DNA of 64,000 nt from Candidatus Cloacimonetes bacterium HGW-Cloacimonetes-3 (GTDB lineage: Bacteria > Cloacimonadota > Cloacimonadia > Cloacimonadales > Cloacimonadaceae). The position numbers and the translations under genes were made by a program. The stretch spans positions 1 through 64,000 of the forward strand of contig PHBO01000014.1 in NCBI GenBank assembly GCA_002840645.1. Direction: 5' to 3'. Below, piece after piece: positions 26,189-55,050 of the stretch. Below the pieces are notes generated by a model. It ran no database searches. It was not told the DNA's origin and saw nothing but the letters and a program-made list of their open reading frames with translations. The first letter of the stretch is position 1; the number at the start of each line of letters is the position of its first letter.

Positions 26189-28303
26189 ATGAACAACTAT
26201 TTCATGGAAACTCACCATCACGAGTGGATTTTGACTAACAGACTGGGAGCTTATGCACTTGGGACTGGGAATCTGATCAATCAGCGCAAGTATCATGGCT
26301 TGTTGATAGCCAGCGACAGTGCCTTTAACCGCACACATCTTGTGGCGGGAATGGAAGAAAAAGTAGAGTGGCGGGGCGAGGTTATCCATCTGGATAGCAA
26401 TAACTATAGCAATTGCATTTATCCAGAGGGATTTCTGCATTTAGTGAAGCCTTGGTTGCGTCCCTATCCTGCCTTTCTGTATTCGGCATTGCCACATCAG
26501 AATGATATTCTGATTTTGAAAGAGATCATGATGGATGAAAATACAAACACGGTGCTGATTAAGTACACTAATTTTGGGCACCATAAGCTTCATTTCGAAT
26601 TCCATCCTAAGTTCACTTTAACAGCACATCACGAGCTTAACCAATCCGGAAGTTTAGATTTTGCTCAATTCGATACTAAAATAGAGGTTCATAGAAATAA
26701 TCCCGATGCCTCAAATCAGGATGTGCCAAGCTCGAAGGATGTAAAATCGGAATTCAGCAGCAATGGTGAAGGTGACTTTGTTCGCTTTTCCGCATGCAGA
26801 ACCGATAACCGCTTATGTGTGCATGGCGCACTTATGCAAGGAGAAGTAATACCCAATCGTTATGTGTATTACAATGTGTTCTACCCTTGGGAAGTAATGA
26901 GCGGATATTCCGGTATTGGAGATCAGATAAGCCTCTTCCAGCTTGCCTTCGATCTAAAGGTAGGAGAAAGCAATTCCATTCTGTTCAGTGATAATGCCAT
27001 CCACGATGCTGCGGCAGTGATTCAGCGAATTGAAGCTCGTTATGCATCTTTACCCAAACCAAACGATTTACCTGCAAAACCTGATCAGGATGACACGCTG
27101 TTAAACTCCTTGGATTATGATGATAATTTCCTGTTCAAACATGATGAATATATGAAGATATTGGAGTTTGCACTAACGGACTTTTTGGCGAATGATGATA
27201 TCGTGGCTGGATACCCATTCTACGGGGCATGGGGCAGAGATACGATGGTGGTGCTAAATGCAATGCTCCACAAGCCTGATAGCCTCGATATTGTGGAGAG
27301 AATCCTGAACAAATACAGCGGCTATATAAAGAACGGGCTTATTCCCAATATGCTTGCCGAATCCGGCAGAGAAGCGAATTATGATACGGTTGATGCTACA
27401 CTGTGGTACATCATCTTGCTGTGGAAGCTTGGTAAACTGAAGCAGGATACCCGTTATTGGGAAGAAAAGATTACGCTTACAGAGAGCATCCTGACTGCCA
27501 TAGTAAATAACTTCACCTATCCTTTCGATGTAAGAAAGGATGGCTTGATTGAATTGCAGGAAGAATTTGCCCATGGTACTTGGATGGATGTGCGCATTGA
27601 TGGCAAACCTATAACCCCCAGAAGCGGTGCTCCTGTGGAGATAAATGCATTGTGGTATAATGCTTTGTGTAGCTATGATGCCATGTGTATCGCCCTGGGT
27701 AATGCTACAGGTAAAAAAAGCCCGGCTCTTGCGCAGATGGTATCTTTAAAAGACCAAGTGCGGGATTCCTTTGGCAAGTTTTGGAATGATGACTTTCTTG
27801 CCGACAGACTGAAGGGTAATGAACCTGTTATTGAGATACGCCCCAATGCTCTTCTTGCCCTTTCTCTGCCCTGGGCAGTGCTAAGTAGGGATAAGATGGA
27901 AAAGGTTCTGGAACGTGCCTTTATGGAGCTATATACCAATTATGGCATACGTACTCTTAGTCCCAGAGACATGCGTTTTCGCAAGAAATACTATGGCACA
28001 CAGCGGGAACGTGATATGTCCTACCATAACGGCAGCGTGTGGGCTTGGCTATTGGGTGCTTTCAGTGGTTTGTATGTGAAAACCTATAGTGGTATTCGTA
28101 GTGATGCAGAAATAGCAGAAACGCTCAGTTCCTTCGTGCAAACCTTCCGTCAGAGCTTTATGCGTGGGCATATTGCCTCCGTAGCAGAGATATGGGATGG
28201 CGATGCACCGCATTTCCCGAAAGGCGCACCTGCGCAGGCATGGAGCGTGGCAGCACTGTACAATATTGAAAGCTATATTGTCAAACTGGGGGAACAGAAA
28301 TGA
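26189..28303 (+). CDS. Glycogen debranching enzyme family protein (amylo-alpha-1,6-glucosidase)
   Basis: 704 residues: an N-terminal GDE_N beta-domain (GAYALGTGNLINQRKYHGLL near residues 20-40) and a C-terminal (alpha/alpha)6 GH133/GDE_C barrel with YPFYGAWGRDTMVVL (~345), TVDATLWYI (~405), FAHGTWMDVRIDG (~470) and NGSVWAWLLGAF (~615). It hydrolyses alpha-1,6 branch stubs in glycogen-like glucans in the cytoplasm. GGGGG before the ATG is the likely ribosome-binding site. First gene of a six-gene operon; it overlaps the glycosyltransferase by 4 bp. Confidence 0.92.
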   Translation: MNNYFMETHHHEWILTNRLGAYALGTGNLINQRKYHGLLIASDSAFNRTHLVAGMEEKVEWRGEVIHLDSNNYSNCIYPEGFLHLVKPWLRPYPAFLYSALPHQNDILILKEIMMDENTNTVLIKYTNFGHHKLHFEFHPKFTLTAHHELNQSGSLDFAQFDTKIEVHRNNPDASNQDVPSSKDVKSEFSSNGEGDFVRFSACRTDNRLCVHGALMQGEVIPNRYVYYNVFYPWEVMSGYSGIGDQISLFQLAFDLKVGESNSILFSDNAIHDAAAVIQRIEARYASLPKPNDLPAKPDQDDTLLNSLDYDDNFLFKHDEYMKILEFALTDFLANDDIVAGYPFYGAWGRDTMVVLNAMLHKPDSLDIVERILNKYSGYIKNGLIPNMLAESGREANYDTVDATLWYIILLWKLGKLKQDTRYWEEKITLTESILTAIVNNFTYPFDVRKDGLIELQEEFAHGTWMDVRIDGKPITPRSGAPVEINALWYNALCSYDAMCIALGNATGKKSPALAQMVSLKDQVRDSFGKFWNDDFLADRLKGNEPVIEIRPNALLALSLPWAVLSRDKMEKVLERAFMELYTNYGIRTLSPRDMRFRKKYYGTQRERDMSYHNGSVWAWLLGAFSGLYVKTYSGIRSDAEIAETLSSFVQTFRQSFMRGHIASVAEIWDGDAPHFPKGAPAQAWSVAALYNIESYIVKLGEQK

Positions 28304-29643
28304 AGATATTAATGTTCACCTGGGAGTTCCCTCCCCTGATTTCTGGTGGATTGGGCATGGCGTGTTACGGAATGGTGAAAGCCTTGCTGGCACAAGGAAT
28401 TAAGATAGACTTGGTATTGCCTACCAAGGAACTGGTGTATTTCCCCATGCGCGAAGAAAGTGATGTAGATACTTTACCGGTAATATTCCTTGATCCCTTG
28501 ATGCACAAAGAGTACAGCAGGCACAAGTTTGAGACAATAAACGAACGTCTGGAGTATATAGGTATTACATCTCAGCCGCAATCCTACTTCAGCCTTAAAG
28601 AGATCAGGCAGTATGCTGCTTCGGTTAAGAAGCACTATTGGCTTAGTGAAGTAGTTACTGATGAAGAACAAGACCTTTGGGATGAAATGACCACTAACCT
28701 GATTGGCGATGAAGACCTTATCCGTAAGGTGCAGGAATATACGCTGCGAGCTGATCGTTTTGCCAGAACACTGGATTATGATCTTATCCATTCTCACGAT
28801 TGGTTAACCTATCCCAGCGGCATGCTTGCTAAACAGATTAGCAAAAAACCTCTGGTGGTTCATATTCATGCCACAGAATTTGATCGGGCTGGTGGACCCG
28901 GAGACGAGCGGGTTCATAAAATAGAACATGCAGGTATGACCTATGCAGATAAAGTAATTGCTGTGTCCAAATACACCGCACAAATGATCATGAGCCGTTA
29001 TAGAATAGATACAGGTAAAATCCGCATCATTCATAATGCCTTTTCTTTACCTGTGGATACGGTGCTAACCCAGGAGAGGATATTTAAAGGACCTACGGTG
29101 CTTTTCCTGGGACGAGTTACCTTGCAGAAAGGACCTGATTATTTCCTTGATGTGGCAGACCGGGTGTTAAAAGTGCATCCTGAAGCAAGGTTTATCATTG
29201 CCGGTACAGGTGATATGTCCCGCCATCTTTTACGTAAGTCTGCGGCAATGAGGCTGAAAAACCGTTTCCTGTTTACCGGGTTCTTAAACCGCAAGCAAGT
29301 TGAGAGTATTCTGAGAGCAGCGGATATCTATGTGCTGCCCTCTGTATCAGAGCCTTTTGGTATATCACCCCTGGAAGCTATGGCTTTTGGAATAACCTCA
29401 ATAATTTCAAAACAATCCGGTGTTGCCGAGGTTGTAAATCATGCTTTTAAGATAGACTATTGGGATATAGACCTCTGGGCTGAGACCATAAATCACCTTA
29501 TAGAGAACCCTGAGAAGCGTATCAAAATGGGAATCGAGGGTATGCAAGAAGTGAACCGCATCCAATGGGATGAGGCTGCAGAAAAGATCAGGCATCTTTA
29601 TTCCACTATGTTAGCGGAGTATATCCGCAGACCGAAGAATTAG
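28300..29643 (+). CDS. Glycosyltransferase family 4/5-type protein, probable glucan (glycogen) synthase
   Basis: 447 residues with two Rossmann domains (GT-B). The N-terminus MFTWEFPPLISGGLGMACYG is the acceptor-side loop typical of glycogen synthase-like enzymes. HSHDWLTYPSGMLA and VVHIHATEFDR (~165-190) lie in the active cleft, LFLGRVTLQKGPDYF (~267) begins the nucleotide-sugar domain, and SVSEPFGISPLEAMAFG (~348) holds the E-x7-E donor-binding glutamates. Between a debranching enzyme and a GH57 enzyme, it most likely extends an alpha-glucan from a nucleotide sugar. A trehalose- or sucrose-related role is the main alternative. Confidence 0.9.
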   Translation: MKILMFTWEFPPLISGGLGMACYGMVKALLAQGIKIDLVLPTKELVYFPMREESDVDTLPVIFLDPLMHKEYSRHKFETINERLEYIGITSQPQSYFSLKEIRQYAASVKKHYWLSEVVTDEEQDLWDEMTTNLIGDEDLIRKVQEYTLRADRFARTLDYDLIHSHDWLTYPSGMLAKQISKKPLVVHIHATEFDRAGGPGDERVHKIEHAGMTYADKVIAVSKYTAQMIMSRYRIDTGKIRIIHNAFSLPVDTVLTQERIFKGPTVLFLGRVTLQKGPDYFLDVADRVLKVHPEARFIIAGTGDMSRHLLRKSAAMRLKNRFLFTGFLNRKQVESILRAADIYVLPSVSEPFGISPLEAMAFGITSIISKQSGVAEVVNHAFKIDYWDIDLWAETINHLIENPEKRIKMGIEGMQEVNRIQWDEAAEKIRHLYSTMLAEYIRRPKN

Positions 29644-29651
29644 GAGCAACA

Positions 29652-30851
29652 ATGCTGAATATCATCTTCTACTTCCAAGTTCATCAGCCCTACCGGCTGG
29701 ATCACTTCAATGTGCTGGACATCGGCAAAAACAGAAACCTCTTCGACGATAAACTAAATGGATTAGTGATGCGTAAAGTGGCAGAGAAATGCTACCTGCC
29801 AACCAATAAATTGTTACTGGAGCTTATCCAGCAAAGCGAGGGACGCTTCAAGATAGCTTTCTCGATAACGGGGACAGCAATAGAGCAATTCAAGTTGTAT
29901 TCCCCCGAGACACTGGATTCGTTTAAAAGACTGGTGGATACCGGCTGTGTGGAACTGCTGGGCGAAACATACTTTCACTCGCTGGCATTTCTGTATGATA
30001 CCAATGAGTTTCTGGATCAGGTTGCAATGCATCGTGATCTGATGCAAAAGGAATTTGGCTATTATACCACTACTTTCCGTAATACTGAGCTTATCTATCA
30101 GGATAGGCTTTCGGATCTCATCTATGAAGTGGAAGGCTTTAAGACAATTGTTACCGAGGGTGTTGATCGTATCCTGCAATGGCGCACTCCCTTGTATGCA
30201 TATAAGAATTATTCCAAGGATATCAATCTGTTACTGAAATACTACCAGTTGGCTGATGATATTGCTTTCAGATTCTCAAACCGTGATTGGCCGGAGTACC
30301 CGCTTACGGTGGAGAAGTTCGTTTCATGGATAGATCACCTAACCTTGGGAGAAACAAGTGGCAAGAACCTATTCCTTAACCTGTTTATGGATTATGAGAC
30401 CTTTGGAGAGCATCAATGGGCTTCGTCCGGTATCTTTGAATTCATGAGGCACTTCCCTTCAGAAGTTCTTAAGCGTCCGCATCTTGGCTTTGCCAACCCA
30501 AAAGATACTACGCATCTGGCTAACTACCAGCAGGAGTCCTTATCCTTCCCCGAAGCAGTGTCTTGGGCAGATGAACAACGTGATCTGTCTGCATGGCTGG
30601 AAAACGGCATGCAAAAGAACGCCATCGAAACTCTCTATGAGCTGTTCTCGCGGATTAAACAGAAAGGCGATCCGGAGTTGCTTAGAATAGCAAGGTTGCT
30701 AAGCACCTCCGACCATTTCTACTATATGTGTTCCAAATACTTCCAAGATGGAGATGTGCATAAATACTTCTCGCCTTATGATTCCCCAGATCAGGCATAC
30801 ACCTACTTCATCACAGCCTTGGCAGAACTTGAAGAACGGATAATGGGTTAA
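29652..30851 (+). CDS. Glycoside hydrolase family 57 (alpha-amylase / 4-alpha-glucanotransferase type)
   Basis: 399 residues. The GH57 conserved regions appear in order: HQPYR (I, ~11), LLGETYFHS (II, ~108), FRNTELIYQ (III, carrying the nucleophile Glu, ~138), MDYETFGEHQ (IV, with the acid/base Asp, ~258) and a C-terminal helical region. The length fits intracellular GH57 alpha-amylases, shorter than branching enzymes. It starts 8 nt after the glycosyltransferase, so glucan synthesis and breakdown genes are coupled here. Confidence 0.93.
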   Translation: MLNIIFYFQVHQPYRLDHFNVLDIGKNRNLFDDKLNGLVMRKVAEKCYLPTNKLLLELIQQSEGRFKIAFSITGTAIEQFKLYSPETLDSFKRLVDTGCVELLGETYFHSLAFLYDTNEFLDQVAMHRDLMQKEFGYYTTTFRNTELIYQDRLSDLIYEVEGFKTIVTEGVDRILQWRTPLYAYKNYSKDINLLLKYYQLADDIAFRFSNRDWPEYPLTVEKFVSWIDHLTLGETSGKNLFLNLFMDYETFGEHQWASSGIFEFMRHFPSEVLKRPHLGFANPKDTTHLANYQQESLSFPEAVSWADEQRDLSAWLENGMQKNAIETLYELFSRIKQKGDPELLRIARLLSTSDHFYYMCSKYFQDGDVHKYFSPYDSPDQAYTYFITALAELEERIMG

Positions 30852-38588: not shown

Positions 38589-39359
38589 CTAAGTGCTGCT
38601 AATCATGGCATAAGCATTATGGTTGTGGATGGATTCGAAGTTTTCGGATTCCACATGAAAAGCAGTTATACGCTTATCTACTTGCAGTTCCTCAGTTATC
38701 CCTCGCACTATATCCTCCACAAACTTTGGGTTATTAAAGGCTTTCTCTGTAACGTACTTCTCATCAGTGCGCTTGAGTAAAGGATATATCTCGCAGCTGG
38801 CATGCCTTTCAGCAAGTGAAATCAGCTCTTCCAGCCACACAAATTCATGATAACATACCCTGATAGTGATAGCAGATCGTTGATTATGAGCACCGTATTC
38901 GCTGATCTCTTTGGAACAGGGGCAAAGTGTGGTTACCGGAACCACAACGCCGATCCACAGCTTGAAGCTATCTTTCAGTGAGGCATTGAAGATGCAATCA
39001 TAACTTAGCAGTGAGGCAATTTTTGATACAGGTGCATGCTTTTTTATAAAGTATGGGAAGCTGATATCTACATAAGCTGCTTCTGCCTTCATGGTATTCT
39101 TCAGCTCTGTCAGGAACACATCCAGCTTACTTATGAAGGCTTCCTTGTGATAGCGGTTCAATATCTCGATAAAGCGGCTCATATGGGTGCCGCGGGTATG
39201 ATGCGGCAGCTCCACATAGATATTCAGATCCGCCACGCTATGCTGCTCACCACTGCTTCTGTCCTCCACCACGATTGGGTAGCGGATTCCCTTTACTCCT
39301 ACCTTGTCGATAGTAATATTGCGGCTATCTGCCTGGTTTTGGATATCGGGTATGCTCAT
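38589..39359 (-). CDS. folE2: GTP cyclohydrolase I type IB
   Basis: 256 residues, matching FolE2, the metal-flexible GTP cyclohydrolase that makes 7,8-dihydroneopterin triphosphate for folate or queuosine precursors. Marks: VGVKGIRYPI near the N-terminus, ELPHHTRGTHMSRF (~50-63), CPCSKEISEYGAHNQRS (~146-162; zinc-binding Cys) and ESIHNHNAYA at the end. Overlaps apbE by 4 bp (ATGA). Confidence 0.93.
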   Translation of the reverse strand: MSIPDIQNQADSRNITIDKVGVKGIRYPIVVEDRSSGEQHSVADLNIYVELPHHTRGTHMSRFIEILNRYHKEAFISKLDVFLTELKNTMKAEAAYVDISFPYFIKKHAPVSKIASLLSYDCIFNASLKDSFKLWIGVVVPVTTLCPCSKEISEYGAHNQRSAITIRVCYHEFVWLEELISLAERHASCEIYPLLKRTDEKYVTEKAFNNPKFVEDIVRGITEELQVDKRITAFHVESENFESIHNHNAYAMISST

Positions 39360-40357
39360 ATTTTCTCGGTTAGGGAACTGTCCAATATGCCTAATGTCTT
39401 AAGGGAAACTATGCTTCCATCCTTGGTGTAATAGATTATTGCATTGCAATCGGGGATGCGTTTAACAGCTTCTATTGCCGCTTCAGGCTGCATCAGGAAT
39501 AATGCTGTGGAAAGCCCGTCTGCCCATGCAGCGGAGTGGTTCAGAACCGTAACGGAATGTACTGCTTCCACAGGATACCCCGTAAAGGGATTTATAATAT
39601 GGTGATACCGCTTGCCGTTAATCTCAAAGAATTGCTGATAGTCGCCGGATGTTCCTACACTATTATTCAGAATTTTGAAGCTGGCTATATAGTCATCAGT
39701 TTTGCGTGGGTGCTGTACATAAACTACCTGAGGGATGGGGTTACCAAAGAATGTCATGGAACTGCGACAGCTAATATAACCGTTATCCAGCCCAATGCTA
39801 AACATATATGCTCTTGCTTTATCCAGAATATAACCCTTGGCAATAGCACCAAGTGCAATCTGCATCTCGACAGGTTTAACAAGCTTTTTCTTATCAAACT
39901 GTATCCTGTTGAACCCCACTTTCTTAAGCTCTTCTTTTATCTCTAAGGAGTCCGGGATAGTGGGAGATTCAGAATTAAACCCCCACATATCCCATACGGG
40001 CTTAATAGTGGGATCAAAAGCTCCGCCGGTCATCTTGTACAAGCTATCTGCAATCACCAGCATCTCATATATATCATCATCCATAGGGAAGCTTGTTTCC
40101 ATGCTGTTGTTCACTTTGCTTAGCCAGCTATCAGGCTGGAATTCATTTAGCTTAGCTTCCAGATTCTTGATGAACACAAACACAGAATCTATCTGCTTAC
40201 TGATAGTTTTGCTCTTCGATGTGGAAGAAATCTCCACCACGGTATCCATCAGATATTGGCTCTTGGTTTCGGTAAAGGCACGTGTCTGGTACTTATATGT
40301 GGCAAATGATAATACGCCAACCAGGATAAGCAGGGAGATTATTTCTTTCTTTGTCAT
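39356..40357 (-). CDS. apbE: FAD:protein FMN transferase (ApbE family)
   Basis: 333 residues with an N-terminal membrane segment (ISLLILVGVLSFATYKY), so it acts outside the inner membrane. It attaches FMN to Thr of RnfG/NqrC-type flavoproteins. Marks: MDTVVEIS (~38), GGAFDPTIKPVWDMWGF (~116), ALGAIAKGYILDKA (~174; FAD binding), GDYQQFFEINGKRYHHI (~242; HHI metal/base region), ADGLSTALFLM (~295). The next gene upstream is the zinc-ribbon membrane protein gene; apbE shares 4 bp with folE2. Confidence 0.93.
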   Translation of the reverse strand: MTKKEIISLLILVGVLSFATYKYQTRAFTETKSQYLMDTVVEISSTSKSKTISKQIDSVFVFIKNLEAKLNEFQPDSWLSKVNNSMETSFPMDDDIYEMLVIADSLYKMTGGAFDPTIKPVWDMWGFNSESPTIPDSLEIKEELKKVGFNRIQFDKKKLVKPVEMQIALGAIAKGYILDKARAYMFSIGLDNGYISCRSSMTFFGNPIPQVVYVQHPRKTDDYIASFKILNNSVGTSGDYQQFFEINGKRYHHIINPFTGYPVEAVHSVTVLNHSAAWADGLSTALFLMQPEAAIEAVKRIPDCNAIIYYTKDGSIVSLKTLGILDSSLTEKI

Positions 40358-47816: not shown

Positions 47817-48254
47817 TTAGTACTTCTTACCAATTTTGGTGGTAAGAAACTGCACCAATTCTTCTTGTTCTGAACGGGTTTTGGAAAAACGGAGGGATTG
47901 TCCCCTAAAGGTATCCAGGCGTCTTGGCATTTTAAAAGTGCTAAGCATTATGCCGTGTTTGTCCTGATAGAAGCAGCCAAAATCGCTGTATGGTCTGCTT
48001 ACCTTTACAAATAGGTAGTAAATTATGTATTTATCGTCATAAAGTTTGTAGTCTGTAGGGATGAAGTAAGGTATCAGGTTCAATAGCACAAGTGACATGC
48101 CAATCACATAATACAGAGGTTGAGCCCATGAAAACACGGTGATTTGATATAACAACACTGCCAAAAGAATAAGAAAGGAGAGCAAAAAAAACGATGTATA
48201 AGGACGCTCTACGAAGGGCCATGACTTCCAGTTTATGATTGGTTCAGGCGACAT
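47817..48254 (-). CDS. Small membrane protein of unknown function
   Basis: 145 residues with two membrane segments (about 21-40 and 45-65; LLSFLILLAVLLYQITVF and YYVIGMSLVLLNLIPYF), then a soluble tail with YKLYDDKYIIYYLFVKVSRPYSDF resembling a bacterial PH-like or DUF-type domain. No name is supported. The gene overlaps yicC by 11 nt and precedes rnr, so it is co-transcribed with RNA-handling genes. Confidence 0.78.
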   Translation of the reverse strand: MSPEPIINWKSWPFVERPYTSFFLLSFLILLAVLLYQITVFSWAQPLYYVIGMSLVLLNLIPYFIPTDYKLYDDKYIIYYLFVKVSRPYSDFGCFYQDKHGIMLSTFKMPRRLDTFRGQSLRFSKTRSEQEELVQFLTTKIGKKY

Positions 48255-49256: not shown

Positions 49257-50540
49257 CTACTCGCATATTAGTGTTCCCGCTGTGGCGTCAATCACGGTCG
49301 CTTTCTTCAACGTTCCTATATCAGATTCCGTACCGCTTAGCACAGCAATTTTATAATCTCTGGTTTTACCTGAAACAAAACTATCACTTTTCTTGCTGAA
49401 GCTCTCTACATATACTTCAACACATTTTCCTATCTGAGATCTAAACTTCGTGTAAGTAATCTTACGCTGAAGCTCGATCATTTGTTGCAATCTGCTAAGG
49501 CGTATCTCTTCGGGAACCTGGTTAATCATACCAGCAGCATCAGTGCCTTCACGAGGGCTGTATTTGAAACAAAATGCATAGTCAAAACTTAGCTCTTGCA
49601 TAACCGATAATGTATCTTCAAACTCTGCATCCGTTTCTGAGGGAAAGCCGGCGATAATATCAGTAGTGACAGCAATGCCCGGAATTGCATGTTTAAGCTT
49701 GTTAACCCGTGAAAGGTAATGTTCTATTGTGTAGTTTCGGTTCATTTCATGAAGGATGCGATTGTTACCGCTTTGCATAGGTAAATGTATGTGCTCGCAT
49801 ATCTTATCAGATGAAGACATTACTTCAATCAAAGAATCTGATAAGTCTTTGGGATGTGAGGTAATAAAGCGAAGACGACTGATCTCATCAATAGAATTCA
49901 GGTATTTAAGCAATTTTGGGAAGTCAATATCTCCATCATGATAGGAGTTAACATTTTGTCCCAAAAGAGTAATGTCCTTCAATCCTTGCTCGCCAGCCCT
50001 TTTAACATCTGCGTACACTTCTTTCCATGGCCTGCTGCGTTCTCTACCTCTTACATGAGGAACAATACAATAGCTGCAGAAATTATTGCACCCGCGCATT
50101 ATAGTCACAAAGCCACAAGTATTGCTTTGATGTACCGGCATTAGGTCATGATAAACTTGCTTACTGTCGAAATCTAGTAATACAGGAAAATCCCCATCTG
50201 AGGTAATCATTGCAGGCAGCATATTATACTGGTCTACTCCAGCCACTATATCTATACCAATATTACTTTCCAGCAGCTTCTCCCCTATTCTCTGAGCCAT
50301 GCAGCCCAATAGGCCGATTTTAATATTAGGGTTGGTTTTCTTTCGGTGTTGTTCATTAGATATACGACCCAGAACACGTTCTTCTGCATGAGCTCTAACA
50401 GAACAGGTGTTAAAAAGTATCAGCTCTGCCTGATCCATATTTTGGACTAACTGGTGCCCTGCAGAGATGAGAATTGATGTTATCAATTCACTATCAGCTA
50501 CGTTCATCTGACAACCATAGGTTTCAATGTAAAAGTTCAC
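49257..50540 (-). CDS. miaB: tRNA-2-methylthio-N6-dimethylallyladenosine synthase
   Basis: 427 residues. The N-terminal MTTase domain has the auxiliary-cluster cysteines in YGCQMN, NTCSVR and LGCMAQ. The radical SAM motif is GCNNFCSYCIVP (CxxxCxxC), and a C-terminal TRAM domain (~365-427) binds RNA. It adds the methylthio group to i6A37 of tRNA. It starts 45 nt downstream of the GT-Ppx fusion gene. Confidence 0.95.
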   Translation of the reverse strand: MNFYIETYGCQMNVADSELITSILISAGHQLVQNMDQAELILFNTCSVRAHAEERVLGRISNEQHRKKTNPNIKIGLLGCMAQRIGEKLLESNIGIDIVAGVDQYNMLPAMITSDGDFPVLLDFDSKQVYHDLMPVHQSNTCGFVTIMRGCNNFCSYCIVPHVRGRERSRPWKEVYADVKRAGEQGLKDITLLGQNVNSYHDGDIDFPKLLKYLNSIDEISRLRFITSHPKDLSDSLIEVMSSSDKICEHIHLPMQSGNNRILHEMNRNYTIEHYLSRVNKLKHAIPGIAVTTDIIAGFPSETDAEFEDTLSVMQELSFDYAFCFKYSPREGTDAAGMINQVPEEIRLSRLQQMIELQRKITYTKFRSQIGKCVEVYVESFSKKSDSFVSGKTRDYKIAVLSGTESDIGTLKKATVIDATAGTLICE

Positions 50541-50585: not shown

Positions 50586-52556
50586 TCAAATCAGCTTCCT
50601 GGAGGGATTAGTTAGTCTCCACTTAGCATAGCCAATCGAAATACCATCAGCGCAGACTAATATTTCAGACATAGCGAATTTGTCCAGAAGAGATATTGAG
50701 AATGCAATACTAAGTGATAGTATCGGAAGATAGCCTTCATCCAGCAAGTAGGGCAGGTATTGATTCTGTTCTTGATTCATGATTTCAGTCTTTAGCTTAA
50801 GCAGCGTAGCTTTTTTGATAGCTTTGCCATGGTGTTCATTAATGTTGTTACTGTCAGTCTTGAATAAGACAGATGCAAGGTATGTAAATGTGAGCCCTAC
50901 TCCAATAATTATAGTGGGTTTTACATCCGTCAAATCATTTATATAAGTGTCCCAAATGCCCTTCGTTTCAGTCCAAGCGTCAGCTTGGCTATTGTGTATT
51001 GTAAGCAAACCAACAGGGACGCTTGTACAATTGTACTTTCCGTATTTACCATAAATAACAAACTCGGTGCTTGCACCTCCAACATCAATTGCCAGGGTAC
51101 CCTCTTCCCCACCTGCTAAATCTTTGGCAGCATGATAAACATAGCGTGTTTCTTCTTTCTCTGAGATCACTTTAGCATTGATGCTATATTTATCTTTTGC
51201 CCATGTTAGCATTTTCGTGCTGTTAGAGGCGATTCTTGAAACTCCTGTAGCGAGTAGTACTTTCTCTGAAGATATGCTCTTGTCTATATTTAGAATTGGA
51301 GACATTGCGCTTTTAGCGAAGCATATGTTTGTGGTGGATAGCTTGTTCTTAGAAAAGCCCCTTCCGAGATGGGTGGTACAGTGCGCCGAGTGTATCACCT
51401 TGCCATCCTTAAGGTCAAACAGTGCATAATTCAAGCTGTTTGATCCCAAATCAAATATACTTAGTAATTTAGCATGAGGGTGCTTGGTTTCCAAGTATCG
51501 CTTCAACATGAGTGCTGCAATATGTGTGTTTTTATTCCTGAACTTTGGCGCAATCACTTTTCGCGAGCTAACCCTCGATAATATCTGTTTCCAACTAATA
51601 ATATCATTATTCAGGCTATCCAGTTCTATGCAGTTCGGATAGCCCTTTAATCCATCTACTAAAGCGATTTCTTCCGGATAAGCACCCCGGGGGCAGTATA
51701 TGATATATTTGCCGAATTGAACCGCTTCCGCAAATGTGCTATATCCTGGTTTGCACAGGATCACATCTGCATTGAAGATCAATTCCATATAGTCATCACT
51801 GAAGCTTACTTTGAAATGATTTGAAGCATTTACTCCCTCACAGTTGGAGATAACAATTCCGTCATAAGCTTCGCACAAAGCTTCATAATCTAATTCCATG
51901 CCACCTTCTCCGCCAAACATCACCAGCAGAATCTGTGTGTCAGCACGCCATCCATGCTTTTTGCGAAGGTTTGTATAGCTCTTTTTACTTCTTGCCAGTA
52001 GCCCACAATCATCAATGTTTGGCAAAGCAGATACAGATTCTTTGGTGCTGAAGGGCAAACGAAAACTGCGATCCGTATTTCGGTACATAGACCAGATTGT
52101 ATTTAGTACCGGTTTAAACATAGCATCGTTCTTAAACAGGTCACAGTAGATATAGTACCAGTCGAAATTAGTAATTGTAAATACCGGGATATCAGCATAT
52201 TGTGCAATTATGGATACTATGTAAGGAGCATCTGAGATAATCAGATTTATTTCTTCTTTACGGATAAACTCCAGTTCCTCTGCTAATATCCTGTTCCTAT
52301 TACCCATAATGCTTATGATGCCGTTTCTTGTGGCTTGCATATCAACAACCAGGTTCTGTCCATGCTTAACCCCGCTGTCAACAGAACGGAAATGCTGAGT
52401 AAAATACAAGTTATCCAGATTTGAGTACAAAAATGCTGGTTTCTCGCTGATAATATGGCAGTAAACTCCATAGCTTATAAGCTGCTCTGCCAAAGCACTG
52501 ATCCGGGAGGCATGACCGAAGCCATGATTAGACACATAGAGGGCAAATCTAAGCAT
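50586..52556 (-). CDS. Fusion: glycosyltransferase (GT-B, MurG-like) and Ppx/GppA phosphatase domain
   Basis: 656 residues without internal stops. Residues ~1-355 are a GT-B glycosyltransferase-like part: SNHGFGHASRISALAEQL at the N-terminus, FGGEGGMELDYEAL (~220) and CKPGYSTFAEAVQFGKYII (~270), the pattern of MurG/UDP-sugar transferases. Residues ~365-640 are an ASKHA-fold Ppx/GppA domain: SIFDLGSNSLNYALFDL (phosphate 1), SEKEETRYVYHAA with the Ppx catalytic Glu, AIDVGGASTEFVI (phosphate 2) and a CADGISIGYA closing segment. Ppx/GppA degrade polyphosphate or pppGpp. I do not recall this fusion being described. Start ATG 52556, 8 nt after the NusG-II-domain gene. Confidence 0.9.
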   Translation of the reverse strand: MLRFALYVSNHGFGHASRISALAEQLISYGVYCHIISEKPAFLYSNLDNLYFTQHFRSVDSGVKHGQNLVVDMQATRNGIISIMGNRNRILAEELEFIRKEEINLIISDAPYIVSIIAQYADIPVFTITNFDWYYIYCDLFKNDAMFKPVLNTIWSMYRNTDRSFRLPFSTKESVSALPNIDDCGLLARSKKSYTNLRKKHGWRADTQILLVMFGGEGGMELDYEALCEAYDGIVISNCEGVNASNHFKVSFSDDYMELIFNADVILCKPGYSTFAEAVQFGKYIIYCPRGAYPEEIALVDGLKGYPNCIELDSLNNDIISWKQILSRVSSRKVIAPKFRNKNTHIAALMLKRYLETKHPHAKLLSIFDLGSNSLNYALFDLKDGKVIHSAHCTTHLGRGFSKNKLSTTNICFAKSAMSPILNIDKSISSEKVLLATGVSRIASNSTKMLTWAKDKYSINAKVISEKEETRYVYHAAKDLAGGEEGTLAIDVGGASTEFVIYGKYGKYNCTSVPVGLLTIHNSQADAWTETKGIWDTYINDLTDVKPTIIIGVGLTFTYLASVLFKTDSNNINEHHGKAIKKATLLKLKTEIMNQEQNQYLPYLLDEGYLPILSLSIAFSISLLDKFAMSEILVCADGISIGYAKWRLTNPSRKLI

Positions 52557-52564
52557 ATAAATCC

Positions 52565-52933
52565 CTACTGAAGGATAAGCATCTTATCTGCTTCATTTTC
52601 TTTTATCTCAATAAGTATTTGGTTAGGCAGACATATTATTGGAAGTGAGTTGCTAAAGCCCTGCTTAACACATCGCTTATCGGGACAATCCGCTTTAATC
52701 ATTCTCACTTTCTCATCTTTTATCTCTATTGCGTTGTGCTCATCAATCACGATAATGGCATCAATGTTTATTGGGTATTCGCCTTGAAGATAGTTATTCT
52801 TGCTTACGAAAACAGTTTTATCTTTCTTGTTGTTAGAGAAGTGAAAGGCGCTGAACGCAATGCACATAAGAATCAGAAGTATCAGCAGTACATCAGAAAT
52901 GCTTAACACTCTCCAGAAAAGTTTTCCCCACAT
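52565..52933 (-). CDS. NusG domain II-containing membrane-anchored protein
   Basis: 122 residues: a membrane segment at ~14-31 (ISDVLLILLILMCIAFSA), then a NusG-II (DUF1312-like) beta-domain with ADCPDKRCVKQG (~80) and IICLPNQILIEI (~98). This is the small stand-alone domain seen in many anaerobes, unrelated in role to NusG itself; function unknown. Its start overlaps the radical SAM gene stop by 1 nt. Confidence 0.88.
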   Translation of the reverse strand: MWGKLFWRVLSISDVLLILLILMCIAFSAFHFSNNKKDKTVFVSKNNYLQGEYPINIDAIIVIDEHNAIEIKDEKVRMIKADCPDKRCVKQGFSNSLPIICLPNQILIEIKENEADKMLILQ

Positions 52934-53802
52934 TAACGAGAACCTCTTGAATATCTGGGGATAAATACATTACCTGCATATACTCTCTGCAAATACTGAG
53001 ATACGATATCACACGCTTCTTCCACCTCATCTGCGCGGGTAGCTCTGATGTTTAGCTTGAAACTTGGATGATAGCCAGAAATATGAAAAGGTATGGCATC
53101 ATCAATAGAAGCAACATACAGCGCTAATTCCTTCAGCTCAGAAGGGCTGTCATTCAAACCCGGGATAAGCAGATTAGTGATTTCCAGATGTACTCCGGCT
53201 TCATAAGCACTACGGATGTTGTTTTTCACTATCTCAATATCTCCTCCGCATGTTTGCACATAAAACTCACTTCGGATAGATTTCAAATCTATATTCATAG
53301 CCGCCACATGAGGAAGCATAGCTCTGAATGGAACCTCGTTAATATACGCATTTGTTACCAGCACTATTTCCACATCCGGAGCTATTAACGCAAAATCCAG
53401 GATATACTCGTACCACATCAGCGGCTCTGTGTATGTAAAAGCTACCTGCGTGGGATTATGGGATGCAACGATGCCAAGTAATTCCTGTACAGAAACATCT
53501 CTGGTGCTGCATATTTCCTGGCTTATCTCCCAGTTTTGGCAGAAAGCACAGCTTAGATTGCATGAATTAGGTCCCAAGGATACAATCCTTGAGCCGGGAT
53601 GAAAGTGGAAAAGTGGTTTCTTTTCAATTGGGTCTACAGAAACTGAAACGCATTTAGCATAGTTAACTGCCATCAGTTTTCCCTCAATAACTTGCCTGCC
53701 TCTGCAAAATCCTGTTTGCCCTTCTTCAAGCAGACACAATCGAGGACAAAGGGTGCACCGCACCTGTTCATCTTCATGCACATAAAACAGTGCTTCTCTC
53801 AT
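52933..53802 (-). CDS. amrS: AmmeMemoRadiSam-type radical SAM protein
   Basis: 289 residues. A Cys-rich N-terminus (CTLCPRLCLLEEGQTGFC) precedes the radical SAM motif SCNLSCAFCQNWEIS (CxxxCxxC at ~80-87), and the family phrases FHFHPGSR and TNAYINEVPF follow. In the AmmeMemoRadiSam system it works with AMMECR1 and Memo; neither is in this window. Its start overlaps the waaA stop by 4 bp. Confidence 0.9.
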   Translation of the reverse strand: MREALFYVHEDEQVRCTLCPRLCLLEEGQTGFCRGRQVIEGKLMAVNYAKCVSVSVDPIEKKPLFHFHPGSRIVSLGPNSCNLSCAFCQNWEISQEICSTRDVSVQELLGIVASHNPTQVAFTYTEPLMWYEYILDFALIAPDVEIVLVTNAYINEVPFRAMLPHVAAMNIDLKSIRSEFYVQTCGGDIEIVKNNIRSAYEAGVHLEITNLLIPGLNDSPSELKELALYVASIDDAIPFHISGYHPSFKLNIRATRADEVEEACDIVSQYLQRVYAGNVFIPRYSRGSR

Positions 53803-55034
53803 CTGAGACAGCCTTCAATGGCATGAAGCTGTTTTTCTAAAGCCAGAGAGTTATTAAGCAACACTTGCTTGGCATTCTTTCCTAAAGAAATACGCAAATC
53901 AGCATTCTGCACCAGTAACAGTATATCTTGTTCGAGCTTAATGTTATCCGAAACCACTATACCTTTTCCAAGCAATAGCCTCTTCACTGAGTCCCTGCAA
54001 GACTGGTAGTATCCACCCATAATAATAGCTTTTGCATAATACGCTGGTTCCAGAGGGTTGTGTCCTCCAAAATCAAAGAATGAACCACCTACTATGGCAA
54101 GATCACAGATTGCATAAGCTTGTTCTAAAACGCCAAGACAATCAACCACCAACACTATTTCCTCATATGCATGATCACTAACCATAGAGGAGTAAAGTCT
54201 ATATGGAACTTGGTTGAACAAACCCAATATTTCATTGGTTCTTTGCGGGTGCCTTATCGCAATAATTAACTTAAGGTTTGGAATCAGCTTAAGAAGATGC
54301 GGCAGTATTGAAAGGACTAATGCTTCCTCTCCAGGGCGGGATGAACCCCAACATAGGATAAAGTCATCTGTTACAAAACCCCATTCTTTACGCTTCTTTA
54401 CTTGGTCATAATTATTAAGTTTTAATGCATACTTAAGATTACCACTATTATAGACAGGTTTACGGAATACCTTTTCAAATCTCTTGGCATCATCCTCGCT
54501 TTGTACGTGAATCTCAACTATGGATTTGCTTAACGACCTTAGCAGATTAGCAAGTTTGATATACTTCCCAAAGGACTTGGCGGACATTCGTGCGTTTAAG
54601 AATAGCACAGGAACATTGTGCAATGAAGCCCAGAAAAGCAGATTTAGCCATATCTCAGTTTCAATTATGCAGATCAATCCCGGGTTAATCATACTCAACT
54701 GCTTTTTGCGTAGATGTGGTACATCCAAAACAGAAAGGCATGCACTTATCCGCGGAGATATCCCTTTCGCCAGTTTCAAACCGGTAATTGTACTTGTAGT
54801 GATGCAGATAGATGTGTCAGGATGCTTTTCTAATAGTGCCAATACCAAAGGTCTTATGGAATTAACTTCACCCATTGAAGCGGCATGAAACAGTATTCCC
54901 TTGTTCGTGTCTTTTCCCTCTGCTTTTATAGCTGGAAGGTAATTTCTTAGTCTTAAAATGAAGTAAACAATAGGATAGAAGAGGATGAATAAAGCCTCAA
55001 GGAGCGCATTGAAGAGGATAAAAATAGCTTTCAT
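53799..55034 (-). CDS. waaA: 3-deoxy-D-manno-octulosonic acid (Kdo) transferase
   Basis: The frame is open to 55049, but the ATG at 55034 has AGGAA ~5 nt upstream, giving 411 residues. An N-terminal membrane segment is followed by a GT-B transferase. FHAASMGEVNSIRPL (~50) holds the catalytic Glu of WaaA, and GGSFFDFGGHNPLEPA (~312) is the family signature. It attaches Kdo to lipid A, which shows an LPS-bearing outer membrane. It lies after the tRNA-Asp terminator and before amrS. Confidence 0.93.
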   Translation of the reverse strand: MKAIFILFNALLEALFILFYPIVYFILRLRNYLPAIKAEGKDTNKGILFHAASMGEVNSIRPLVLALLEKHPDTSICITTSTITGLKLAKGISPRISACLSVLDVPHLRKKQLSMINPGLICIIETEIWLNLLFWASLHNVPVLFLNARMSAKSFGKYIKLANLLRSLSKSIVEIHVQSEDDAKRFEKVFRKPVYNSGNLKYALKLNNYDQVKKRKEWGFVTDDFILCWGSSRPGEEALVLSILPHLLKLIPNLKLIIAIRHPQRTNEILGLFNQVPYRLYSSMVSDHAYEEIVLVVDCLGVLEQAYAICDLAIVGGSFFDFGGHNPLEPAYYAKAIIMGGYYQSCRDSVKRLLLGKGIVVSDNIKLEQDILLLVQNADLRISLGKNAKQVLLNNSLALEKQLHAIEGCLR

Positions 55035-55050
55035 GATATTCCTGTCCATG

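Follow-up and report, generated by a model that had tools for sequence, protein, structure and literature searches.

A GT-B glycosyltransferase joined to a short Ppx/GppA module in Cloacimonadota

Introduction

The labels exopolyphosphatase and pppGpp hydrolase are assigned as a matter of routine to proteins of the Ppx/GppA family. In the window, by which we mean the whole 64,000-nucleotide stretch of DNA from Candidatus Cloacimonetes bacterium HGW-Cloacimonetes-3 that was analysed (the genome is 2.68 Mb in size and 97.5% complete), a Ppx/GppA domain forms the C-terminal half of a protein that begins as a glycosyltransferase (GT). The question raised by this locus is what a phosphatase-like module does in such a protein, and why the two are joined.

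Architecture of the fusion protein

The protein is encoded by a single unbroken open reading frame with an ATG start on the minus strand of the window, with bounds exactly at 50586-52556:

50586..52556, minus strand: fusion gene, GT-B glycosyltransferase plus short Ppx/GppA module, 656 aa
51507..52556, minus strand: GT half, residues 1-350, GT-B fold (Pfam/NCBIfam, model)
50607..51479, minus strand: Ppx/GppA half, residues 360-650, domains I and II only (Pfam/NCBIfam, model)

The first-pass annotation had described one protein joining a GT-B glycosyltransferase to a Ppx/GppA domain, and this description stands, as both domains are detected in the one reading frame and the models match both folds. 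The model of the full chain has low confidence (pLDDT 70); its best structural match is the Aquifex Ppx/GppA structure 1t6c (TM 0.75 by target), and it also matches UDP-glycosyltransferases. The protein is a GT-B glycosyltransferase (residues about 1-350) followed by a Ppx/GppA module (residues about 360-650), a new domain architecture that is built from two known families and is seen, within the reach of the search, in Cloacimonadota alone.

The alignment comprises 41 full-length fusion ORFs, 33 from the window's own family (f1) and 8 from other families, among which identity to the window protein ranges from 23 to 100%. The linker between the domains is short and steady, measuring 57-65 residues in 40 of the 41 fusions. 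In close pairs, unsaturated ones among them, dN/dS is 0.05-0.22 in both halves, and as judged from these comparisons both halves are under purifying selection. An assembly artefact, the outcome that the earlier reading had named as its own refutation, is ruled out, as is an annotation artefact, because many independent genomes carry the fusion (41 aligned ORFs in eight Cloacimonadota families). Inspection by eye found no obvious candidate near codon 350 for an internal start from which a separate Ppx product could be made.

The glycosyltransferase half

The AlphaFold2 model of residues 1-350, computed with four sequences as input, has a pLDDT of 85 and a pTM of 0.84, and a Foldseek search with this model returns UDP-dependent GT-B enzymes with E values of 1e-13 to 1e-10. 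The predicted structure has the two Rossmann-like domains and the C-terminal donor site of a GT-B enzyme. Two conserved patterns, HGxGHxxR close to the N-terminal end and, in the C-terminal domain, KPGYSxxxE, are invariant or nearly so and sit where GT-B enzymes bind donor and acceptor:

52503..52526, minus strand: GT N-terminal motif HGFGHASR, residues 11-18 (alignment)
51723..51752, minus strand: GT C-terminal donor motif KPGYSTFAEA, residues 269-278 (alignment)

Within the first motif, G12, H15, and R18 are invariant or nearly so across the aligned fusions. In the second, the aligned counterpart of E277 in Escherichia coli MurG is the Glu of its GALTVSE motif, the donor motif being the sole part that hhalign aligns with that enzyme.

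In terms of family assignment, Glyco_tran_28_C (PF04101) matches residues 247-291 with 22.1 bits, marginally above its cut-off of 22, whereas Glyco_trans_1_3 (PF13528) matches residues 8-132 with 19.7 bits, below its gathering cut-off of 25, and TIGR00661 (the MJ1255/VC2487 family) scores 36.6 bits against a curated cut-off of 195.9. Weak TIGR00661 matches recur in 19 of 20 GT halves. By sequence, the GT half is a distant relative of MJ1255/VC2487 and of the GT28/GT1 enzymes rather than a member of the MJ1255/VC2487 family. With scores under the cut-offs for TIGR00661 and PF13528 and marginal for PF04101, any donor or acceptor named for it is a guess. Beyond the phylum, no match to the GT half was found among plasmids or viral contigs; a scan of genome contigs, which reaches close relatives only, gave matches in Cloacimonadota alone.

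The Ppx/GppA half

PF02541 (Ppx-GppA) matches residues 387-599 with an E value of 2e-15 and 57.4 bits, well above the gathering cut-off of 27, and a TIGR03706-like match that falls under the TIGR03706 cut-off spans residues 365-643. The motifs and positions that characterize this half are as follows:

51435..51452, minus strand: Ppx phosphate-1 motif DLGSNS, residues 369-374 (alignment)
51150..51152, minus strand: E469, corresponding to E. coli PPX E121 and unchanged in every Ppx row of the alignment
51063..51086, minus strand: Ppx phosphate-2 motif DVGGASTE, residues 491-498 (alignment)
50889..50897, minus strand: GLT in place of the domain-II GGT, residues 554-556 (window protein)
50730..50732, minus strand: Y609, at the E. 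coli R267 position in domain II, where Arg is lost in 33/33 f1 fusions

In the residue map to the E. coli enzyme, R441 corresponds to R93, D491 to D143, G493 to G145, S496 to S148, and E498 to E150. Residues D369, N373, R441, E469, D491, G493, G494, and S496 are invariant across all 41 fusions. The E. coli enzyme is severely impaired when E121, D143, or E150 is mutated (PMC5417653). Judged by its residues, the active site of domain I is intact.

Domain II is altered. The Arg and the GGT motif that are common across the Ppx/GppA family are both missing from the window protein, and Arg at the R267 position is found in 0/33 f1 fusions as compared with 6/8 other fusions, 11/13 unfused orthologues, and 13/13 paralogues. 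The Ppx half also evolves faster in f1. The earlier view that both halves look intact, which came with a proposal to check the conservation of both active sites, therefore holds in part: the key residues of the GT half and those of Ppx domain I are kept, but domain II is altered in f1. Going by these alignments, the Ppx half of the window's family is not fully canonical, although its membership in the Ppx/GppA fold family stands.

A second, unfused Ppx/GppA paralogue is encoded elsewhere in the window's genome (G000:C4:5252-6142; L049:2229-3164), beside glyA and an rpiB-like gene.

Distribution and gene neighbourhood

The fusion is retained in much of Cloacimonadota, an uncultured bacterial phylum. 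Among the 98 genomes of the order, full-length matches occur in most of f1 and in families f2, f3, f4, f5, f7, f8, and f11; a profile of the GT half matches 51 of 125 genomes of the phylum. Fragmentary matches, which appear to sit at contig ends, were set aside. The gene is missing from one f1 genus (g5, three genomes) and so is not universal. With the fragments set aside, the GT occurs without the Ppx half in one genome only (G009, locus L033), where miaB follows directly. The converse, an unfused Ppx without a GT, is found in families f9 and f10, and the GT has decayed in f11 (L041). In family f6, L043:3240-4550 encodes a 437-aa protein in which an intact Ppx domain follows a degenerate GT N-terminal remnant of ~130 residues. 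Since the halves are also found apart, an obligatory coupling of two chemistries is not indicated.

The following genes flank the fusion in the window:

52565..52933, minus strand: NusG domain II protein, directly upstream of the fusion, a neighbour kept throughout the family
52933..53802, minus strand: AmmeMemoRadiSam-type radical SAM protein (TIGR04337), a conserved neighbour
53799..55049, minus strand: waaA/kdtA, Kdo transferase, in the same operon as the fusion
49257..50540, minus strand: miaB, directly downstream of the fusion, a neighbour kept within the family

Where contigs extend far enough, the order in f1 is waaA, radical SAM, NusG_II, fusion, miaB, yicC, rnr, murI. The glycan role suggested in the first-pass annotation is supported for the window's own family by a glycan/LPS gene context, with waaA in the same operon. 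This context is confined to that family; elsewhere the gene adjoins DAHP synthase or other genes. A 145-aa protein with no Pfam match (47817-48254) is conserved in the family, where its gene separates yicC from rnr, and likewise in f7 (L042:507-962). Elsewhere in the window, inspection by eye picked out an ApbE-like gene (39356-40357) and, at 26189-30851, three genes in a row whose products resemble a glycogen-debranching enzyme, a GT4 glycosyltransferase, and a protein of the GH57 type.

DAHP synthase lies next to 17 fusions. It comes after the fusion gene in two genera of f1 and, outside f1, in six of the seven families that have the fusion. The unfused Ppx genes of f9 and f10 show a conserved pairing with it, lying beside DAHP synthase in 13/13 loci (L050-L053, L085-L093). 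The order is NYN-domain gene, Ppx, DAHP synthase in f9 and NYN, GT-Ppx, DAHP synthase in f7, where the GT is fused ahead of the Ppx; in f6 the GT remnant occupies this place. In the tree, the unfused f9 and f10 genes are interspersed with the fusions, and the other paralogue is separated from them (100/99), which indicates that unfused and fused genes represent one locus. Loss of the GT in f9, f10, and f6 is the simpler reading; with forks that are weakly resolved, separate gain is also possible.

Coupling to DAHP synthase was considered as a general explanation of the gene and is weakened by the window's genome, which keeps the fusion but lacks DAHP synthase, the only match being KdsA-like, at 29%. 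A link to DAHP synthase cannot explain the gene there.

Polyphosphate and alarmone enzymes

A link to (poly)phosphate or alarmone chemistry had been proposed for the fusion, and the enzyme inventory of the relatives speaks against it. Of the canonical polyphosphate synthases, PPK1 was found above the cut-off in 0/98 relatives of the order, with control genomes positive, and PPK2 in 0/61 relatives; both are absent from the window's genome. That genome has no RelA/SpoT, the (p)ppGpp synthase, either, and nor do 48/50 genomes of its family; the matches in the other two are weaker and in shorter ORFs. Full-length RelA/SpoT (RSH) is present in several other families, and families f2, f3, f5, and f8 of the order hold it together with the fusion. 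The consistent lack of PPK1 and PPK2 and the near-lack of RelA/SpoT in the window's family make polyphosphate or alarmone chemistry unlikely, and the phosphatase-like half probably handles something else. Two Ppx paralogues are nevertheless retained in the window's genome, which implies that in this family the fold has another job.

Discussion

Our preferred reading, held tentatively and at somewhat under an even chance, is that the protein is an envelope UDP-sugar transferase carrying a nucleotide- or phosphate-binding module of the Ppx fold, which would act as a regulator or as a slow nucleotide hydrolase. The GT half would move a sugar from a UDP-sugar onto an envelope acceptor, which the waaA operon of this family suggests is most likely an LPS-core or lipid-linked glycan. 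The Ppx half would bind a Mg-nucleotide or another phosphoanhydride in the cleft of domain I and may either regulate the GT or work as a slow nucleotide phosphatase that, for example, clears UDP; it would act neither as a polyphosphatase nor as a pppGpp hydrolase. The reason for the join would then be regulation or by-product hydrolysis. As for origin, tree and gene order suggest that the Ppx part goes back to an ancient gene, present across the phylum and paired with DAHP synthase. A GT would have been added at its front, and in several families this GT would afterwards have disappeared or degenerated.

The independent loss of the halves keeps a serious rival in play, namely that two independent enzymes, a UDP-sugar transferase and a Ppx_b phosphatase, share one chain for the sake of co-expression only, the ancestral role of Ppx_b being tied to the pathway of the neighbouring DAHP synthase. 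The lone GT of L033, the lone Ppx genes of f9 and f10, the remnant in f6, and the decayed gene in f11 are all in keeping with such an arrangement, as is the DAHP synthase that adjoins every unfused f9 or f10 gene examined and, likewise, 17 fusions. However, the fusion is retained in the window's genome, which offers no DAHP synthase as a partner, and the length of the linker is tightly held; we regard this rival as doubtful.

A more specific proposal is that, in a lineage lacking known polyphosphate synthases and for the most part (p)ppGpp synthases, the Ppx/GppA fold has taken on a new use as an integral sensor of nucleotide or phosphate that gates a glycosyltransferase of envelope biogenesis, which would constitute a new regulatory architecture. 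We consider this rather unlikely, and since the halves are separable, neither need regulate the other. Whatever the role of the Ppx half, a fusion that is under selection names a candidate partner, the GT-B enzyme, and makes that role testable with one purified protein.

It is improbable that in the window's family the Ppx half is without catalysis and serves as a scaffold or for dimerisation. The missing domain-II Arg and GGT motif, the faster evolution in f1, and the dispensability of the Ppx half in the one genome with L033 could be explained in this way, but the equivalents of E121, D143, R93, and S148 are invariant in 33/33 family members and dN/dS is low, and such exact retention of ligand-contacting residues is not expected of a dead module. 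Least probable of all is a dual function in which one enzyme combines surface-glycan synthesis with the sensing or degradation of polyphosphate or (p)ppGpp. In its favour one can cite the domain-I catalytic residues shared with exopolyphosphatases, the waaA operon, and the families holding both fusion and RSH. Against it stand the missing PPK and RSH enzymes, the lost domain-II Arg, and the absence from the fusion of the C-terminal region of long PPX proteins, to which E. coli PPX mainly owes its polyphosphate binding (PMC3411833).

Comparison with known systems

No description of a GT-B plus Ppx/GppA fusion was found in the literature searched, which included the GT family, in agreement with the earlier statement that no characterised fusion of this kind was known. 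The Ppx/GppA protein of Aquifex aeolicus (PDB 1t6c, 2j4r) shares the two-domain length, the fold, and the domain-I site including the catalytic Glu; it has no GT domain, and the window protein differs from it in the domain-II Arg and GGT motif. MJ1255/VC2487 (TIGR00661) and the GT28/MurG-like enzymes share the GT-B fold, the N-terminal G/H loop, and the Glu of the C-terminal donor motif, whereas the window protein adds a C-terminal Ppx module.

The N-terminal motifs of the plant L-arabinokinase ARA1 are, we presume, similar to those of the fusion's GT half. ARA1 likewise joins an N-terminal GT-like domain to a phosphate-handling C-terminal enzyme (PMC12281597), but it is eukaryotic, and the partner at its C terminus is a sugar kinase rather than a phosphatase of the ASKHA fold. 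An L-arabinokinase-like protein would carry a C-terminal sugar (GHMP) kinase, and the C-terminal half of the fusion is instead PF02541.

Yeast Rtg2p shares the Ppx/GppA-fold domain, but it lacks a GT domain and belongs to eukaryotic retrograde signalling; its Ppx/GppA-fold domain has been proposed to be an ATP-binding signalling module (PMC5417653). Mycobacterium tuberculosis Rv1026 is an ATPase that hydrolyses neither polyphosphate nor pppGpp (PMC3411833). Rtg2p and Rv1026 thus show that proteins of the Ppx fold can have roles other than polyphosphate degradation, and they favour the reading of the window protein as an envelope UDP-sugar transferase with a nucleotide- or phosphate-binding Ppx-fold module.
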